Source: Vulcanisaeta sp. JCM 16159
GTDB lineage: Archaea; Thermoproteota; Thermoprotei; Thermoproteales; Thermocladiaceae
Length of the DNA stretch: 64,000 nt
Assembly (NCBI RefSeq): GCF_001316265.1
Contig: NZ_BBDN01000004.1
Location: 1-64,000, forward strand
Direction of reading: 5' to 3'
Position 1 is the first letter of the stretch. Each line of letters starts with the position of its first letter. Both the position numbers and the translations under genes were made by a program. The notes under the pieces were generated by a model. The model made no database searches, was not told the origin of the DNA, and worked only from the letters and a program-made list of their open reading frames with translations. Positions 1 through 36,303 of the stretch are shown here, one piece after another.

Positions 1-184
1 TTTTCTTCAACTCGAGTATTGCCGGCTCTGGACAATACATCCAGCAGATCCTACAGCGAATGCACGCGTCCTGGTCAATAACAGGCCTCTCAGTCCTCCA
101 AGAACCGGTTAGGTTCCTACGTGCATTACCTGGCTCAACAATGGCGCCGCCTATTGGTAAATCCTTCCAGGTTAATTGCCTCAT
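1..184 (-). CDS. porD: Pyruvate:ferredoxin oxidoreductase delta subunit (partial)
   Basis: This is the N-terminal 61 residues of the small ferredoxin-like subunit that carries electrons out of pyruvate (or 2-oxoacid):ferredoxin oxidoreductase. Reading the minus strand from ATG at 184 gives an open frame to the window edge. It contains a CxxCxxCxxxCP 4Fe-4S motif at residues 41-52. A second cluster motif is expected beyond position 1, so the gene is cut by the window and not broken. Its ATG overlaps the TGA of porG (ATGA), so the two are co-transcribed and probably translationally coupled. The alpha and beta subunits should follow to the left. Confidence 0.9.
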   Translation of the reverse strand, partial: MRQLTWKDLPIGGAIVEPGNARRNLTGSWRTERPVIDQDACIRCRICWMYCPEPAILELKK

Positions 185-744
185 CATAGCACGATCACCT
201 CGGCCACTTTATAAGCCTCTTCCAGAGCCTCCACGTTTGATTTACCGAGTTTCTTGCCAAAGGTCTCCAGTACTAATTCCTTGACAGTGTCCATATCCAC
301 TAGGTCAAGAACCTTGAGCAACGCACCAAGCATTGTAGTATTCACTATCGGCTTTCCCAAGTATTTCGTGGATATTTCATACGCATTCACATAAACAACC
401 TTACCGCTGAACTTACCTATGGACTGCCTAACATCATCAATGCTTAATGCATTAATGACTATGTAATTCTTCGTTATCTGCGGTATATTGAAGACACTTA
501 GTAACCTAGTATCAAAGACCACAGATATGTCTGGCCTCTCAATGGGTTCCCTGGCCAGGACCGGTTCCCTGGACAACCTAACATATGCCCTAACTGGTGC
601 GCCCCTACGCTCAGCGCCGTACTCAGGGAATGAATTAGCAAATAAGCCACGCCTAATGGCCGCCTGAGCAATAATCTGCGCTGCGGTCACAGCACCTTGC
701 CCACCCCTACCAAAGAACGTGATCTCCACCATCGAACCACTCAT
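184..744 (-). CDS. porG: Pyruvate:ferredoxin oxidoreductase gamma subunit
   Basis: A 186-residue protein of the 2-oxoacid:acceptor oxidoreductase gamma family, which helps convert pyruvate and CoA to acetyl-CoA and CO2 with reduction of ferredoxin in the cytoplasm. The N-terminus shows the family motif GRGGQG (residues 12-17), followed by a segment rich in AE-RRG (SFPEYGAERRGAP). Length fits the family. ATG 744 lies a few nucleotides after the expected start point of a TATA box at 772-780, so it is preferred over the internal ATG at 732. It is the first gene of a por operon, and porD overlaps its stop codon. The frame is intact. Confidence 0.93.
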   Translation of the reverse strand: MSGSMVEITFFGRGGQGAVTAAQIIAQAAIRRGLFANSFPEYGAERRGAPVRAYVRLSREPVLAREPIERPDISVVFDTRLLSVFNIPQITKNYIVINALSIDDVRQSIGKFSGKVVYVNAYEISTKYLGKPIVNTTMLGALLKVLDLVDMDTVKELVLETFGKKLGKSNVEALEEAYKVAEVIVL

Positions 745-771
745 TCTTGGTCAATGACCCGTTATAGAGCT

Positions 772-780
772 CCTTTATAA
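772..780 (-). promoter_or_regulatory. TATA box of the por operon
   Basis: On the minus strand TTTATAAAG lies at 780-772. About 26 nt downstream is position 750, only a few bases before the porG ATG at 744. This is the usual spacing for near-leaderless archaeal transcription. No further operator is evident here. Confidence 0.6.
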
Positions 781-840
781 ACCCTTTATTCTATATTCTC
801 ATAAATAAGGCATTGAGAACAATTGCTTAAAAATAGGATT

Positions 841-936
841 TGCCCCCTGCATGCACCCACACCACTGGGTCCCAGCGGCCCGGTTTCGCGGGTCGTTGGG
901 TGGCCCAATGGCGTGAATGCAAGGCAGGTATGGGCT
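841..936. ncRNA. Candidate structured non-coding RNA
   Basis: This GC-rich segment sits in a 328-base gene-free stretch (745-1072) that is otherwise AT-rich. Bases 871-882 (CCCAGCGGCCCG) pair with 889-900 (CGGGTCGTTGGG) over 12 bp with two G-U wobbles, closing a GTTTCG loop. Flanking arms also pair: CCACTGGG (862-869) with CCCAATGG (904-911), and TGCATGCAC (848-856) with GTGAATGCA (913-921), each with one mismatch. GCCC (842-845) may pair with GGGC (932-935). A TATA-like CTTAAAAATA (826-835) precedes it and a T-rich stretch follows. I see no tRNA, 5S, SRP or known RNase P signatures and no C/D boxes, so the family and strand are not assigned. Confidence 0.4.
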
Positions 937-1072
937 CTATTATTGTCTTTAACTGTTTTATTAAAATAGATTTTTGTAAAGTAGCTCTTGAGTATTATTA
1001 GACTTTATGAACTTTTTTATGTGGTTTTAATTATAAATTTAATAAAAAGGCGCTTTAACACGTGGTCGCGAC

Positions 1073-1461
1073 ATGAATCCGGTAATATGTACTGCGATTG
1101 ATGAGGATTTATCCTTTAATATTTTCTCTAGGGCTAAGTACCTTGTTTTAATTAAGAATGGTGAGATCATTCATAGAGAGGCTAATCCTGCCTGAATTCC
1201 ATAAGTAAGAGGCCGACTGTTGCGAGGAGGTGTGTGGAGCTTGGCGCTGATGTTGTTATTGCATCGCATGGTTCATTATGTTATCCATCATATCAAATAC
1301 TGAGGAGAGCCGGTGTTGAGATTTACGTTGTTGATGCTGGTAAAAGGATCGATAGTGATCTCATAAAGGTAATTAAACCCGTAAATCTGGGTGAGGTTAT
1401 CTATTCGAGCCTTCTGGCAGTAAGGGAGAGAATCATGGAGGTGTTTTCCCATGGGCAGTGA
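1073..1461 (+). CDS. NifX/NafY-like FeMo-cofactor-binding domain protein (frameshifted)
   Basis: A small protein of about 129 residues resembling the dinitrogenase iron-molybdenum cofactor family (NifX/NafY/NifB C-terminal fold). Archaea without nitrogenase use such stand-alone domains in unknown roles. The start ATG 1073 reads MNPVICTAIDEDLSFNIFSR. The typical core GADVVIASHGSLCYPSYQIL follows, then AGVEIYVVDAG. The frame breaks at about 1190, where one extra C in GCC restores ANPALNSISKRP. The next gene begins 11 bases before this one ends, so the two form an operon with the agmatinase-family gene. No nitrogenase genes are present, so a metal-cofactor role would be only a guess. Confidence 0.7.
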
Positions 1462-2362
1462 TATTGACTTCTACGTTAGTTCCCAATACACATTATTTGG
1501 AGTACCGAAGTGCGGTTCTGGCATTCCAATACTTGGTGTGCCGATTGAGGACACTGTCAGCTTTAGGCCTGGCACACGGTTTGCACCAGGGATCATTCGC
1601 TACTGGAGTCAGTACTTCGAGTTTACACCAACAGAGGACTTGGGCATTGATGTACTTAGTAAGGCGTGCGACTTAGGTGACTTAACATTACTTCAGGGTG
1701 TTGTGGACGTAAATGTGGATAGAATTAGGTCCGTCATTAAGGAGACCATTGATAAGTGGGGTAGGGTAATTAGTATTGGTGGTGAGCACACAATGAGTCT
1801 TGGCACTGCTAAGGCCGTGAGCGAGTCCCAGGGTTCATATGGTGTTTACGTTCACGTTGATGCGCACCTGGATTCGAGGGAGGAGTGGCCGGTGGGACAG
1901 TCCCTATCACATGCCACATTTGTCAGGCACTTAGTAAGGCATGTTAAGCCCCAGTTAGTTATTTTCCTTGGTTTTAGATCGTATGATAGGGAGGAGATTA
2001 GCTTTGCGAGGGGCCTTGAGAACTCCATATTACTATCAACCAGGGATATCAAGTTAATGAATAACCATGAACTTAGGCTTCTCATTAGGGGTGCTATTGA
2101 CAGTTACACAGGACCAATCCACCTTAGCATCGATGTTGATGTTCTGGATCCATCAATAATGCCGGGTGTTGGTAATCCTGAAGGCTTCGGACTCAGTTAT
2201 GGCGAGCTCTTGAGAATCGTTAAGGCAATCCTCGACTACGGTGGTTCCAGGGTTAAGGCTGTGGATATTGTTGAGTATTCGCCACCCAATGATCCAGGAT
2301 TAATGTCGTTACCTACAATTATTAAGTTGATTCTTGATGTGCTTAATTACATACATACTTAA
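1451..2362 (+). CDS. speB: Agmatinase/arginase family ureohydrolase
   Basis: A 303-residue ureohydrolase that would hydrolyse agmatine, arginine or a related guanidino compound with two manganese ions in the cytoplasm. The metal-ligand motifs are all present: GGEH (110-113), HVDAHLD (135-141), SHA (153-155) and SIDVDVLDP (226-234). GGEH replaces the common GGDH. The start overlaps the end of the preceding NifX-like gene by 11 bases. Crenarchaea make putrescine from arginine through agmatine, which makes agmatinase the likely activity, but substrate cannot be read from the sequence alone. The frame is intact over its whole length, which is unusual in this window. Confidence 0.88.
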   Translation: MGSDIDFYVSSQYTLFGVPKCGSGIPILGVPIEDTVSFRPGTRFAPGIIRYWSQYFEFTPTEDLGIDVLSKACDLGDLTLLQGVVDVNVDRIRSVIKETIDKWGRVISIGGEHTMSLGTAKAVSESQGSYGVYVHVDAHLDSREEWPVGQSLSHATFVRHLVRHVKPQLVIFLGFRSYDREEISFARGLENSILLSTRDIKLMNNHELRLLIRGAIDSYTGPIHLSIDVDVLDPSIMPGVGNPEGFGLSYGELLRIVKAILDYGGSRVKAVDIVEYSPPNDPGLMSLPTIIKLILDVLNYIHT

Positions 2363-2384
2363 GACTCGGCCTTCCAGGTAGAGG

Positions 2385-2398
2385 TGCACCTTCGTGCA
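2385..2398 (+). terminator. Possible weak hairpin terminator after the ureohydrolase gene
   Basis: TGCAC (2385-2389) and GTGCA (2394-2398) can form a five-base-pair stem with a CTTC loop, followed by an AT-rich run containing TTATTTTTC. It lies 23 bases after the ureohydrolase stop. Archaeal termination depends mainly on T-runs, so the hairpin itself may be incidental. Confidence 0.3.
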
Positions 2399-2572
2399 TT
2401 ATTATGATTATTTTTCAGTTTCCAGCCTGGTCATTCCAGTTGCCAATATTGGCGAAGGAATACTACCCTATATAACAAGATGTAGATTTGGCGGAACGCT
2501 TGGTTTAGGATCATAAGGAAAAGTAGAAGTAAAATACTACCACGTTGGTCAACGATTCAATTACCTACTAAA

Positions 2573-2609
2573 AGATGAGAGGATATCATCTGTGAAAATT
2601 ATTTAAATA
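2573..2609 (+). promoter_or_regulatory. glyS promoter with an upstream inverted repeat
   Basis: ATTTAAATA (2601-2609) is a TATA box centred about 27 bases before the glyS ATG at 2632, which fits a leaderless transcript. Just upstream, AGATGA (2573-2578) and TCATCT (2586-2591) form a perfect 6-7-6 inverted repeat. It may be an operator or chance; only one copy was seen. Confidence 0.5.
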
Positions 2610-2631
2610 TGCCTAGTAATTATCGCGACGA

Positions 2632-4405
2632 ATGGATCTCGAGAAATTCCTGGAGTTAATGAGTGAGAGCGGATTCTTCTACCCAAGCTTTGAGATTTAT
2701 AGGAGTAAGGCAGAGGTTGGTGGTTTCTATGATTATGGACCACTCGGTGTCGAGTTAAAGAGGAATATTATTGAGAAGTGGCGCAGGGTCTTTATTTACC
2801 CATACCAGGACTTCATAGTTGAGGTGGAGACACCGGTAATAATGCCGAAGATAGTCTTTGAGGCCAGCGGTCACCTTGAGCACTTTACGGACGCGATCGT
2901 CGAGTGCACTAAGTGTGGTCGTAAGTTTAGGGCTGATCACCTAGTAGAGGAGGAGCTAGGTAAGAGGGGTATTTCCGTAAAGACTGAGGGCTTAAGTCTT
3001 AAGGAGCTTGACGGATTAATTAGGAAATACAACATTAAGTGTCCGGTTTGTGGCGGCGAGTTAGGTAGTGTTAAACCTTTAACTTGTTATTCCAAACCAC
3101 AATAGGGCCCTACAGCGACAACATTGGTTATCTAAGGCCTGAGACTGCCCAGGGAATGTTCGTATCATTCCCAAAGGTATTCAACCTAATGGTAGGAAGT
3201 TACCACTCGGTATTGCCCAGGTTGGTAAGGTTGGTAGGAACGAGATATCGCCTAGGCAGGGCTTAATTAGGCTTAGGGAATTCACCCAGATGGAGATTGA
3301 GTTCTTCTTCGACCCAGAAAATGCCAAGTGCCCATACCTTGACGAACTTGATGTTAAGTTGAGGATAATACCGGAGAAGGACGTCGCCGCAGGCGTTAAG
3401 GAACCCAGGGAGTTCAGGCCCAGGGAGGCTGTTGAGAATGGTATTGTGCCAAATGAATGGATGGTATTCTTCATGGGCTTGGCCACGATTTACATGAATG
3501 AACTCGGCATACCACTTGATCACCAGTACTTCCTTGCCAAATTGCCCGAGGAGAGGGCTCATTACTCAGCGGCTAGCTTTGACCAGATGGTTTATAGTGA
3601 GAGGTTTGGCTGGGTCGAGGTTAGTGGTCATGCGTATAGGACGGACTATGACCTTAGTAGGCACGCTAAGTATAGTGGTTATGACTTAACGGTTGAGAGA
3701 AGATTAACCACACCCAAGGAGGTTGTTGAGGTTAGGGTTTACCCAAATCCACAGAGGGTTAGGGAGGCCTTTGGTAATGAAATGCCCAGGGTTATGCAGG
3801 TCATTAGTAGGGCTGATCCTAAATGGTTAATTAATGAACTCAATAGTAGGGGTAAGGTAATCATTGATGGATTTACCATAACGAGCGATATGGTTTTTAT
3901 TAAGGAGGAGAGGAGGAAGGTTCATGTCGAGAGGTTTATACCGCATGATATTGAACCGTCATTTGGCGTTGATAGGATAGTTTACGTAACCCTGGAACAC
4001 GCCTACACTGAGGTTAATGGAAAACCACTGCTTAAGTTGCCACCAGACATTGCGCCTATAAAGGCCGTGGTTTTACCCATAATCAGGAAACAAGAGTACG
4101 TGAGTATTGGTAAGAGAATATTTAGGGAGTTATCATCAGTGGGTATCAAGGCTATTTATGATGATGACGGGGCAATAGGCAGTAGGTATGCTAAGTATGA
4201 CTCGGTTGGTGTACCGTTTGCAATAACGATAGATGATAAGACGCCGATTGATGGCACGGTAACGATTAGGGATAGGGACACGAAGGCACAGATTAGAGTT
4301 AAGGTAAATGATGCTATTAGGATCATTGCGGATGCCATTTCAAGGAAGCTATCAATAATGGATATTGCTAGGTCAATGGGTCTTCAATTAATCATCAGGG
4401 AATAA
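2632..4405 (+). CDS. glyS: Glycyl-tRNA synthetase (two frameshifts)
   Basis: An archaeal/eukaryal-type class II glycyl-tRNA synthetase of about 591 residues, charging tRNA-Gly. The N-terminus shows [21 protein letters not shown] zinc-type insertion CTKCGRKF...CPVCGGE follows, then [23 protein letters not shown] and the C-terminal anticodon-binding domain ([12 protein letters not shown] onward). The frame breaks twice. Near 3087, CCTTTAAC should be CCTTTTAAC, giving [12 protein letters not shown]. Near 3215, GCCCAGG should be GCCCCAGG, giving [17 protein letters not shown]. Both are one-base losses in homopolymers of an essential gene, so sequencing error is far more likely than decay. A TATA box 27 bases upstream supports the start. 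Confidence 0.95.
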
Positions 4406-4446
4406 ATAGATAAGCTTAATAAGCCAAGCCTCAGCCTGCATTATCA

Positions 4447-4881
4447 ATGGCGAAGAGGGGTGGTGCGCGTCAGGTAGGTGTTAGCTGGAGATTCCATAAG
4501 ACACCCGGCATATTCATGAATAGCCTAGTCCCTGTTGCGGATAATAGCGGCGCCAAGCTTGTTAGGGTCATAGGCATTGTTGGGCATATTGCCAAGCCCG
4601 TTCATAGGGAAGTACCTGGAGCCTCCGTGGGTGACATGGTCGTCGTGAGCGTTGTTGAGGGCAAGCCTGAGGTTAGGAAGCAGATACTTAGGGCTATCGT
4701 AATTAGGCAGAGAAGGCCGTATAGGAGACCTGACGGTACCTGGATCGCCTTTGAGGATAATGCCGTGGTTATCACGGACGAGAATGGCGCGCCAAAGGGT
4801 AGTGAGATACACGGTCCAGTGGCCATGGAAGCAGCCCTTAGGTGGCCTGGTATCTCAAACCTAGCAACAATAATAATATGA
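4447..4881 (+). CDS. rpl14: Ribosomal protein uL14
   Basis: A 144-residue large-subunit ribosomal protein of the uL14 (L14p/L23e) family. Diagnostic segments are [19 protein letters not shown] in the first third, the basic [12 protein letters not shown] and the C-terminal [15 protein letters not shown]. It binds 23S rRNA at the subunit interface. It lies alone between glyS and an oppositely oriented gene, not in the usual S17-L14-L24 ribosomal cluster, as expected for a crenarchaeon with split ribosomal operons. A TATA-like GCTTAATAAGC around 4413-4423 sits about 27 bases before the ATG. The frame is intact. Confidence 0.95.
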
Positions 4882-4913
4882 GATTAAATCAAAACCTTAA
4901 GTTATTTAACTCA

Positions 4914-5587
4914 TTAGACCTTCTTCTGTAATACGACCCTGAGCACGTTGGCCCTTGCTTCCTCTGAGGTAACTTCATAGTCGTACTGAGTGACGAAGCC
5001 TCTAATAAAGGCCAGGAGCGCCTTATTACCAATGTCGGTGGTGCCGCTAGGCCTATAGCCATTAACTCAATGGAATTAGGACCTAGCTTCTTAATCTCAA
5101 CGTGCCTAACGGCCAGTAATCGACTAATCCTTGATATAGCCTCAAGAAGTCCCTCAAGATCTTCAAACTCCATCTTGACTAATGCACCAACTTGGTGACC
5201 ATATTTCTCATAGATACTCCATAGCTCGTTCACGGCCTTACCCACCTCTCCCCTTATCTCGCTTGGCACCTTGTCATCATTGGAAAGGTTAATTAATGTA
5301 GATATTATGTGGGTGCAAACCTCCTCAATTAACTTCATGGGCATTGGTATCACATCCATTGAACTAAGGATTTTATACAATCTCCAGAAGTAAATTAGGT
5401 CTGACGGTTCAAAACCATCCTTAATGAGTTCGGTTGTTAATTTCAATCCCTCGCCAGCCACGTGGAATAACGTCCTCCCCCTCGTCTTGGCCACACGAGA
5501 GAGCTCTGACGCTATGGTTTTTGGCACCATAATGGTGGTTCTCGAGTACGTCTCCTCGGAACCTTGTTCCTGGTTTTCCTTAGCCAT
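4914..5587 (-). CDS. Uncharacterised protein with an RHH-like N-terminus (frameshifted)
   Basis: About 225 residues and not a recognised family. Residues 17-50 (around TTIMVPKTIASELSRVAKTR) look like a ribbon-helix-helix or similar small DNA-binding unit. The rest is predicted helical with no catalytic signature. The frame is lost near 5043: restoring one G gives IGLGGTTDIGNKALLAF and a continuous frame to TAA at 4914-4916. It follows the ABC permease gene in the same direction with about 80 bases between. It could be a local regulator of that transporter, but this rests on position only. Confidence 0.6.
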
Positions 5588-5667
5588 AGCACTTCTATTT
5601 ACATGTATGCATTAGAATACTTATAAGCCTTATTGCACGCAATTAATGATGATTAACGTGAAATAAC

Positions 5668-7337
5668 TCAAAGCGTTATTGCGCCCTCAAGCCTATACCT
5701 CTCCCTGGCCAACTTGAATAATTTCCTCCAGAGGAATATGCTAAGCAGGATTACGTTTATGGCAAGTATTAGGCTCATGGCCTCAAGACCGACTATATTA
5801 CCTATCGCCGTGTAGTAATCCATTAGGGCAGTGTATCCATGGACCATGTACACCTGCCCATTAAGTCCCTGAATATACTCGGCAACCTCAAGGCCTCCCC
5901 ATGTCGAGCCAACAGTACTTGCTAAACCCGTTATTGTTGCCGGCATCGCACCTGGAATCGCCAACCTTCTAAGTTTCTGCCAGGTACTTAATTTGAGGTT
6001 CTCGGCTACATCCCAAAGGCTCCTGGGTATGGTTTTCATGCCCACGTACATGTTGTAGATCACGTACCAAGCAGTGCTTAAGTAAGCTACTAGGAATACT
6101 AATAATTCAAGGGATGCGTAAAGCCCTAAGATGATGGTTAAGTACGTTATAAATGGAATGGCAATTAGTGGTAAGTAGGCTGACACTGGTATTGATGCCA
6201 AGTCCTCAAGTATCGGCAGCAACACCGCCTCAATTTTCCTGTGAGTAATCATTAAGTAGTTAATGGGTATTGCGGTGATTATCGATGCAACGGTCACCAT
6301 GGCGATTCTTAACCAATCAAGCCCAAGATAATAAAGATAAAGTAAGCCATATTCATATAAATTAACCATTATTGGAACCCAAGTCGTTTGCCAAGTCTCA
6401 TAAATTGAATACGTCATTAAGCCAATGATTATTGCTGCCGCGGCTATTCCTACGTACTTCTCAGTTCTCGTTATTATATTCCTAGGCCTTGGTCTTACCA
6501 GTAATCTATGCCTAACGGCATAGCCTGAGGCCCTAACGAATATGGGCATTATTGCATCCTCAACAGCCGCAACCCTCCTTAGATACCTCATATTCCTAGC
6601 CGCCAAGGACTTAACACGGCTCGTTATCACCGGCCTCCTAATTCTAGTCCTGGTAACCTCTATGAATGGGTCATAACTATACTTAACAGCCCAGTTAACA
6701 AATGGCCTAAGTACGCCAAACAATGCGGCAGTCACCATAATTACCAATATACTGAGCCCTACAAATGCGGCAGTCCACTCACCTCTACTTGTCCATGACG
6801 CTATTAATGCCCCTATGCCGAAGACGGAGTACTGCGTTGTACCCAGCGTAATCACCTCACTAACCACTATGTAGAACAGGGCATCGGCAAAACTGACAAG
6901 GACATTACCGGCTACCCTGGGCATCGTGACCGGTATGTATAGGTACCTAAACCTACCCCAGAAACTGAGGTTAAACATCTCAGCGGCATCCTCAAGCGAC
7001 TGGGGCGCGGTTTTTATAGCCTCATACTCGCCGACCCATATGTTCCAGACAACGGCTGTGAATACTAGGAAGTCCACGGCTAGTTCCGTACCTATGTAAC
7101 CACCTATTGACTTAACGAAGAATACCAGGACTATTGGGAAGAACGTAATTACGGGCACAGCCTCAAGTGTTTGGGTGATTGATAGGAATACCCTCTCAAA
7201 GAGTCCACTCTTGGCCGCGGCATAACCAAGGAACCAACCAAGCACTATACCCAGGACTATCGTTAATGCAACCCTACCGAACGTGGCGAGTGTCGCTAAA
7301 AACGCTATAAGGCTATGGACCAAATGTCCATAACCAT
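5668..7337 (-). CDS. Two-domain ABC transporter permease, NitT/TauT type
   Basis: About 556 residues carrying two complete permease units, each with about six membrane helices. Each has an EAA loop for docking the ATPase: YEAIKTAPQSLEDAAEMF in the first half and YVGMKTIPRSLWDVAENL in the second. Proteins of this type import nitrate, sulfonates, taurine or similar anions. The ATPase gene lies just upstream (stop at 7341). The best start is ATG 7337, which needs one extra T near 7325 (MVMDILVHSLIAF); otherwise translation must start at TTG 7323. No substrate-binding protein gene is next to it, so the substrate is unknown. Confidence 0.85.
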
Positions 7338-36215: not shown

Positions 36216-36303
36216 GCGGGGGTGCCCGAGCCAGGTCAAAGGGGACGGGTTGAGGTCCCGTTGGCGAAGGCCTGCGTGGGTTCAAATCCCACCCCCCGCA
36301 CCA
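36216..36303 (+). tRNA. tRNA-Leu (anticodon GAG)
   Basis: Class II tRNA with a long variable arm. Acceptor stem GCGGGGG (36216-36222) pairs with CCCCCGC (36293-36299). The D stem is CCC/GGG (36225-36227 and 36241-36243). The anticodon stem ACGGG/CCCGT encloses TTGAGGT, anticodon GAG at 36252-36254. The T arm is GTGGG-TTCAAAT-CCCAC. The discriminator is A36300 and CCA (36301-36303) is encoded in the gene. There is no intron. A TATA-like CTTAAAG begins 29 bases upstream. The variable arm (about 36262-36275) fits leucine. Confidence 0.95.

Follow-up and report, generated by a model that had tools for sequence, protein, structure and literature searches.

RNA-A, a probable conserved RNA gene in an AT-rich gap

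The locus lies in a window of 64,000 nt from Vulcanisaeta sp. JCM 16159 (contig NZ_BBDN01000004.1; genome G000), within an AT-rich gap bounded by a minus-strand gene of the POR family (PF01558) and a small plus-strand open frame. The initial annotation had described a GC-rich island at 841-936 with a stable fold, no open reading frame and no assigned identity, and these features were borne out. The GC content is 0.53 at 801-900 and 0.59 at 851-950, compared with 0.19-0.43 around it (0.43 at 701-800, 0.35 at 751-850, 0.34 at 901-1000 and 0.19 at 951-1050). The fold energy is -63.1 kcal/mol on the plus strand (z -5.53) and -63.7 kcal/mol on the minus strand (z -7.06), and was equalled by 0 of 200 dinucleotide shuffles on either strand. 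None of the 22 open reading frames of at least 60 aa listed for window positions 1-6000 overlaps the element. The island itself was confirmed, but the conserved element was found to span 834-936; it is very probably an RNA gene on the minus strand, here named RNA-A. It has the shape of a long hairpin with its 5' end near 936, and its features are as follows:

834-936, minus strand: very probable RNA-A gene, about 103 nt with predicted ends, supported by covariance-model copies, fold z and alignment A1
957-970, minus strand: TATA-like box tctattttaataaa, at -34 to -21 from the RNA-A start
904-936, minus strand: 5' arm, partner of the 3' arm via G-U pairs and small loops
929-931, minus strand: 5'-arm ANA bulge, N being any base
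871-900, minus strand: apical hairpin
843-864, minus strand: 3' arm TGGTGTGGGTGCATGCAGGGGG, complementary to the first ~21 nt of RNA-B (see below)
838-847, minus strand: conserved 3' tail GGGGGCAAAT

No tRNA was found at RNA-A when the window was searched with ARAGORN and Rfam, and the only Rfam match at gathering score in the whole window was a tRNA at 36216-36300. A relaxed Rfam scan of 700-1250 returned five matches at E ≤ 10, all far under gathering score. Six loci carrying RNA-A or its partner RNA-B from three genera gave no match at gathering score, and three further loci searched at E ≤ 1 gave one match, which was under gathering score. Our literature search found no description of RNA-A; we therefore call it undescribed with respect to the literature searched and Rfam 15.

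Distribution and copy number

A covariance model (R1) was built from the 20 copies of alignment A1, which match it by construction, and detected 26 sense-strand copies of RNA-A in 18 of the 25 family genomes; one additional weak match (E 0.72) was set aside. RNA-A was found with this model in all nine family genomes that are at least 90% complete. A DNA search of 61 genomes gave matches in 13, some of them short. The carriers fall into three genera, Vulcanisaeta (g1), Caldivirga (g2) and a third genus, g4. GTDB unites these genera in one family, which we take to be Thermocladiaceae, whereas NCBI places Vulcanisaeta and Thermocladium in Thermoproteaceae. A broader model (R3) was run on 45 genomes from the order and on 81 from the class, each set containing the 25 family genomes and runs above 40 genomes using stricter filters; it detected no RNA-A in the 56 class genomes outside the family. 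A pattern scan of named genomes returned 52 stretches, 16 from Vulcanisaeta or Caldivirga and 36 from bacteria, the latter being taken for chance matches of a degenerate pattern. The one exact match in a search of viral_contigs was also taken for chance: it lies within a 27.8-kb contig in which no A-like element was seen and whose ORFs, in our estimation, resemble genes of tailed viruses of bacteria.

Within Vulcanisaeta, seven of 12 genomes carry at least two near-identical copies of RNA-A (two or three; three in G008), four carry a single copy, including G011 (99% complete), and G006 has none. Caldivirga and g4 genomes have one copy each. Two of the copies in each of the seven multi-copy genomes lie upstream of a POR gene and a phosphoribosyltransferase gene, the latter assigned by PF00156 for L002 and judged from the flanks in the remaining genomes. 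Copies within a genome are on average 0.97 identical (9 pairs), versus 0.86 for the same locus in different genomes, and the 60 bases upstream of within-genome copies are just 0.60-0.65 identical, as if gene conversion were confined to the transcribed part. Each of the two sets of loci (L002, L018, L020 and L022 versus L001, L008 and L010) retains its own upstream sequence, whereas the RNA bodies have been homogenised.

Conservation of the RNA-A fold

Across the 20 copies of alignment A1, 98.1% of 520 cells pair; sliding the partners lowers this to 52.3% or less. The count covers the 26 pairs of the outer stem alone, with zero from the 871-900 hairpin. The covariation score of the outer stem, 0.225, was reached by 0 of 500 shuffles. 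Five of the 26 pairs have changed on both sides, a number equalled by 14 of 500 shuffles, and pair types are no more numerous than in shuffles (331 of 500 reach the count). The initial annotation had pointed to the 871-900 stem as the place to look for compensatory changes. Such changes were found, but in the outer stem; folding of 10 main Vulcanisaeta copies showed that the 871-900 stem carries mostly one-sided changes, located near the loop, with a few replaced pairs lower down. In the main Vulcanisaeta copies the top of this apical hairpin is well conserved and the segment below it varies in length and sequence.

A further alignment, A3, comprises 18 of the 26 RNA-A copies and spans the three genera. 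Invariant in it are a GCC, both A columns of the ANA bulge, the CC after the bulge and a GGGGG; the middle of both arms is not invariant. Separately, lengthened G or C runs in some draft genomes (L009, L005 and L071; for example 7-8 G versus 5) resemble homopolymer errors, and these extra letters shift the alignments at the GGGGG end.

The apical hairpin is shorter in Caldivirga and g4, where six of seven copies contain a UUGAAA/AAGUAAA internal loop (L014 1443-1531, L015 1500-1586, L016 1445-1531, L068 1395-1491, L070 1501-1594 and L071 1501-1597) that we take to resemble the loop-E (bulged-G) motif. This loop is absent from Vulcanisaeta RNA-A. In g4 interruptions divide the internal arm helix into short segments.

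Strand and promoter-like signals

Upstream of the minus-strand start, the A+T fraction averaged over 26 copies is 0.92-1.00 at -31 to -27, the longest such run within 60 bases, with isolated A+T-high positions elsewhere in the same stretch; on the opposite side of RNA-A it is at most 0.88 at all 45 positions examined. In the pair table of alignment A1 (20 copies), whose structure had been predicted on the minus strand, the minus reading gives 66 G-U pairs and 0 A-C among 520 cells, and the same 66 cells become A-C mismatches when read on the plus strand. By eye, most copies have A-rich apical loops. MFE does not favour the minus strand (means of -64.7 on minus and -69.0 on plus for 15 copies). 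The initial annotation had in effect read the element on the plus strand, with a TATA-like element before it. The upstream A+T box and the G-U pairs speak against that reading, and since RNA-A is very probably on the minus strand, the left-hand sequence lies on the wrong side to be its promoter.

Comparison with known RNA families

The initial annotation had hinted at a reduced RNase P RNA. This was excluded because all five genomes tested have their gene for RNase P RNA type T (RF02357), scoring over cut-off, at another place (for example G000:C3:73657-73858). Its statement that the element is neither tRNA nor SRP RNA held: neither matched there, and an archaeal SRP RNA gene (RF01857) was located elsewhere in 5 of 5 genomes (for example G000:C16:9697-10018), with three of the five matches over cut-off and that of G011 covering only part of the model.

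Pyrobac-1 (RF01722) from Pyrobaculum is comparable: it too is a small RNA with no assigned role, belongs to the same order and often occurs twice per genome. However, none of the matches listed at E ≤ 1 for 45 genomes (stricter filters) falls at an RNA-A or RNA-B locus, the matches over cut-off come from nine genomes that all belong to family f2, and the four Pyrobac-1 copies inspected differ from RNA-A in sequence and fold. A coding function was also rejected, as no listed ORF reaches 60 aa at the element and the length differences between aligned copies are not divisible by three.

H/ACA guides are defined (PMC4652768) by a 7-9 bp lower stem, a spacing of 14-16 nt between box and upper stem, an internal guide loop separating the two stems, an ACA/ANA box directly 3' of the lower stem and a K-turn or K-loop in the upper stem. 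By contrast, about 30 nt of the RNA-A 3' strand lie between the basal stem's end and the upper stem in Caldivirga and g4 (by eye), and the copies share no common box, their tails reading CAAAT in many Vulcanisaeta copies and TCAAT or TTAAT in Caldivirga. Vulcanisaeta RNA-A has just the 3-nt bulge and small loops; the internal loop of Caldivirga and g4 is about 4-6 nt per side, conserved in sequence and missing in Vulcanisaeta. No K-turn or K-loop was seen by eye in the RNA-A folds. On stem length and the missing shared box, identity as an H/ACA guide is disfavoured.

A separately encoded partner, RNA-B

The main fact about this locus was missed by the initial annotation: RNA-A has a separately encoded partner, RNA-B, whose 5' end covaries with the RNA-A 3' arm. 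When Vulcanisaeta genomes were searched for a 17-nt pattern with up to two mismatches, one extra copy of the 3'-arm complement was found elsewhere in nine of the 11 genomes that carry RNA-A; in G011 the complement has diverged, and none was found in G005. Exact matches to the pattern in 12 Vulcanisaeta genomes are confined to the RNA-A and RNA-B loci, and the sequences of two-mismatch matches were inspected at five loci. The copy in the genome of the window lies outside the window itself:

G000:C12:52471-52531 (L003 1501-1561), plus strand: putative RNA-B gene

RNA-B is a second conserved element, consisting of a TATA-like box, a C-rich CCCC-leader of ~21 nt and a GC hairpin, with a predicted length of about 60 nt. 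Upstream of it, the A+T fraction averaged over 18 copies is 0.94-1.00 between -31 and -26. Vulcanisaeta RNA-B shows no U-run after the hairpin. In G000 it is flanked by an unassigned gene on one side and a metallophosphoesterase gene on the other, and the remaining Vulcanisaeta copies have similar surroundings. The RNA-B locus of Vulcanisaeta is separate from RNA-A; in the complete genome G007, for example, RNA-B is at 86 kb and RNA-A at 591 kb and 1,824 kb. In Caldivirga and g4, RNA-B starts 146-176 bp upstream of RNA-A on the same strand in all seven genomes that carry RNA-A. No gene neighbour shared across genera suggests a target.

Genes for both RNAs are present in 17 genomes. Among the incomplete genomes, G005 has RNA-A with no RNA-B found, G006 has RNA-B with no RNA-A and G023 has neither. 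The family's five g3 genomes, which are 69-88% complete, yielded neither RNA. A gap pattern targeting the upper portion of RNA-A recovered the known copies in G012, G014 and G017 and gave 0 matches in the five g3 genomes, G023, G006 and G026.

Complementarity between RNA-A and RNA-B

Over 21 positions in 12 genomes, the RNA-A 3' arm and RNA-B form 242 Watson-Crick pairs, nine G-U pairs and one mismatch (252 cells). Double changes occur at four positions, and 1 of 20,000 permutations of the partners does as well. Own partners give a mean duplex energy of -52.4 kcal/mol versus -41.7 kcal/mol for permuted ones, with 0 of 20,000 permutations as low. Permutations ignore descent, so that these P values are indicative only; in the main Vulcanisaeta group, the partners of close relatives are interchangeable in the duplex-energy table. 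Support independent of the permutations comes from lineages in which the paired sequence has been rewritten: the RNA-B leaders of G011, G014, G017, G020 and G021 diverge, some almost throughout, and each fits its own RNA-A, the arm being largely another sequence in G011 and in G017 and G020. RNA-B of G010 has one mismatch and is two letters out of place at its 3' end.

The helix between the two RNAs is uninterrupted for 16-26 bp (mean 21.5) in 16 of 16 genomes, with 0-2 G-U pairs, and 3,200 letter shuffles of RNA-B gave a longest helix of at most 13 bp. The internal arm helix of RNA-A runs uninterrupted for 7-20 bp with up to five G-U pairs in the same number of genomes. G002 was counted in the 12-genome complementarity set and left out of the 16-genome sets used for duplexes, helices and cofolding.

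Cofolding at 37 °C favoured the complex over the separate RNAs in 16 of 16 genomes, by -5.1 to -24.4 kcal/mol, and at 85 °C the complex was favoured in six of six tested. In all 16 complexes, at most two of the first 24 nt of RNA-A remain paired with the 3' arm and an upper hairpin of at least five pairs survives; 8 to 23 of these 24 nt are unpaired, and six complexes are drawn with 4-16 nt of the RNA-A 5' arm paired with the body of RNA-B. In two genomes the intermolecular duplex is slightly weaker than the internal arm helix (-48.7 versus -49.3 in G000 and -48.8 versus -50.7 in G007), which speaks against simple displacement.

Proposed role of the RNA pair

Pairing between RNA-A and RNA-B is strongly supported by the sequence comparisons: extended complementarity, kept by compensatory change, was found between two separately encoded RNAs. 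Because the 5' arm largely lets go of the 3' arm in the cofolds and the upper hairpin stays, our reading of the pair is one of antisense strand exchange. Conservation, strand preference, promoter-like spacing, the partner, trans covariation and the predicted energy preference are results of the computation. On balance, RNA-B would be a trans-encoded antisense or strand-exchange regulator that opens RNA-A, with regulation as the output. Both RNAs would be transcribed, and the exchange of strands would take place in the cell. The leader of RNA-B would pair along its full length with the RNA-A 3' arm, which could alternatively pair with its own 5' arm via G-U wobbles, small loops and the ANA bulge. 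RNA-B would invade RNA-A, a continuous duplex replacing the weaker internal helix and freeing the 5' arm. The weak points of the hairpin, its bulge and wobbles, may be kept to admit the partner.

Pairs of trans-encoded antisense or sponge sRNAs are known in bacteria. The pair described here resembles them: its two small RNAs are encoded separately and share a long complementary stretch, and one of them ends in a terminator-like hairpin. It differs in being archaeal, in that the arm bound by the partner also forms part of the target's own hairpin, in that the paired sequence has been rewritten in lineages with complementarity kept, and in the ratio of one to three RNA-A genes to one RNA-B gene. 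A guide RNA directed at rRNA or mRNA is disfavoured, since the arm middles change in G011, G017 and G020 and complementarity to RNA-B is kept.

The alternative that survives best, though we consider it unlikely, is that the two RNAs are halves of one obligate two-piece structural RNA, the core of a ribonucleoprotein, joined by the helix between the RNA-A 3' end and the RNA-B 5' end; the tandem arrangement of RNA-B and RNA-A would be older and split in Vulcanisaeta, and the RNA-A hairpin would be a storage or precursor form. Such an RNA would account for the presence of both genes in 9 of 9 high-quality family genomes, for the tandem order in Caldivirga and g4 and for an intermolecular helix that is better kept than the internal one. 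Splitting of tRNAs occurs in these archaea, and split, trans-spliced tRNA genes exist in Caldivirga and relatives; they are alike in that pieces from separate loci are joined by complementary extensions. Unlike them, RNA-A gave no tRNA by ARAGORN or Rfam in the window, nor by Rfam at six related loci, and no splice motif was identified by eye. Against a two-piece RNA, even in tandem genomes each gene has a TATA-like box of its own and RNA-B has a terminator-like hairpin, so that each seems to be a transcript in its own right; seven Vulcanisaeta genomes have unequal copy numbers (two or three RNA-A, one RNA-B found), and the internal helix between the RNA-A arms is conserved too.

It is less probable still that RNA-B is a sponge or decoy titrating an RNA-A that functions by itself, for example as a protein-binding hairpin, the freed 5' arm having no conformational role. 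The complementarity and the separate promoter-like boxes would fit this equally, and the drifting arm middles suggest that complementarity alone matters, with no outside target, but a sponge leaves the retained bulge and the G-U wobbles of the 5' arm unexplained.

We give little credence to RNA-A as a cis-regulatory leader of the downstream minus-strand gene (a POR subunit or a phosphoribosyltransferase). The distance from the element to the POR gene in the window is indeed 90 bp, and that to the phosphoribosyltransferase gene at the other common Vulcanisaeta locus roughly 80-160 bp (by eye), with element and gene on the same strand in both cases; however, the downstream genes seem, by eye, to be preceded by a TATA-like box of their own, placed after the element and ahead of the start codon, and the Caldivirga element at L016 sits beside unrelated genes, a TIM-barrel gene (PF01261) and an H+-pyrophosphatase gene (PF03030). 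Least credible of all is a mobile or palindromic, MITE-like repeat spread in Vulcanisaeta with RNA-B as a decayed partial copy, as might be imagined from the long near-perfect inverted repeat and the two to three near-identical copies per genome in seven genomes, for there are just one to three copies, two of which occupy the same two places in those seven genomes (judged from flanks), promoter-like spacing is kept, and RNA-B follows RNA-A through large sequence change with its own box at a fixed distance.

A more far-reaching reading, which we regard as possible but doubtful, is that RNA-A toggles between the closed hairpin and the complex with RNA-B and that both states are selected, as a three-strand switch or a two-piece ribonucleoprotein RNA with a housekeeping role in a single archaeal family. 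U4/U6 and crRNA/tracrRNA are strand-exchanging RNA pairs; if the toggle were true, RNA-A and RNA-B would in principle be an archaeal counterpart of such pairs, unrelated by descent. Trans covariation across genera despite rewritten sequences is direct evolutionary evidence for an RNA-RNA interaction. A 2018 review (PMC5867862) describes the targets of intergenic archaeal sRNAs as hard to find, with a regulatory role reported for very few of them. For RNA-A, the partner is supplied by the sequence itself. The pair is also an example of concerted evolution in a small-RNA gene.

Other features of the window

To the right of RNA-A, the small gene at 1073-1461 looks broken: near 1193 it meets an in-frame stop, and another open part covers 1234-1461; in the relative L006, the corresponding stretch seems open past the position of the stop (by eye). 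The gene at 2632-4405, presumably for glycyl-tRNA synthetase, is split into two open frames at 2632-3105 and 3290-4405, which is possibly a frameshift or an assembly error in a genome (G000) rated 63% complete.
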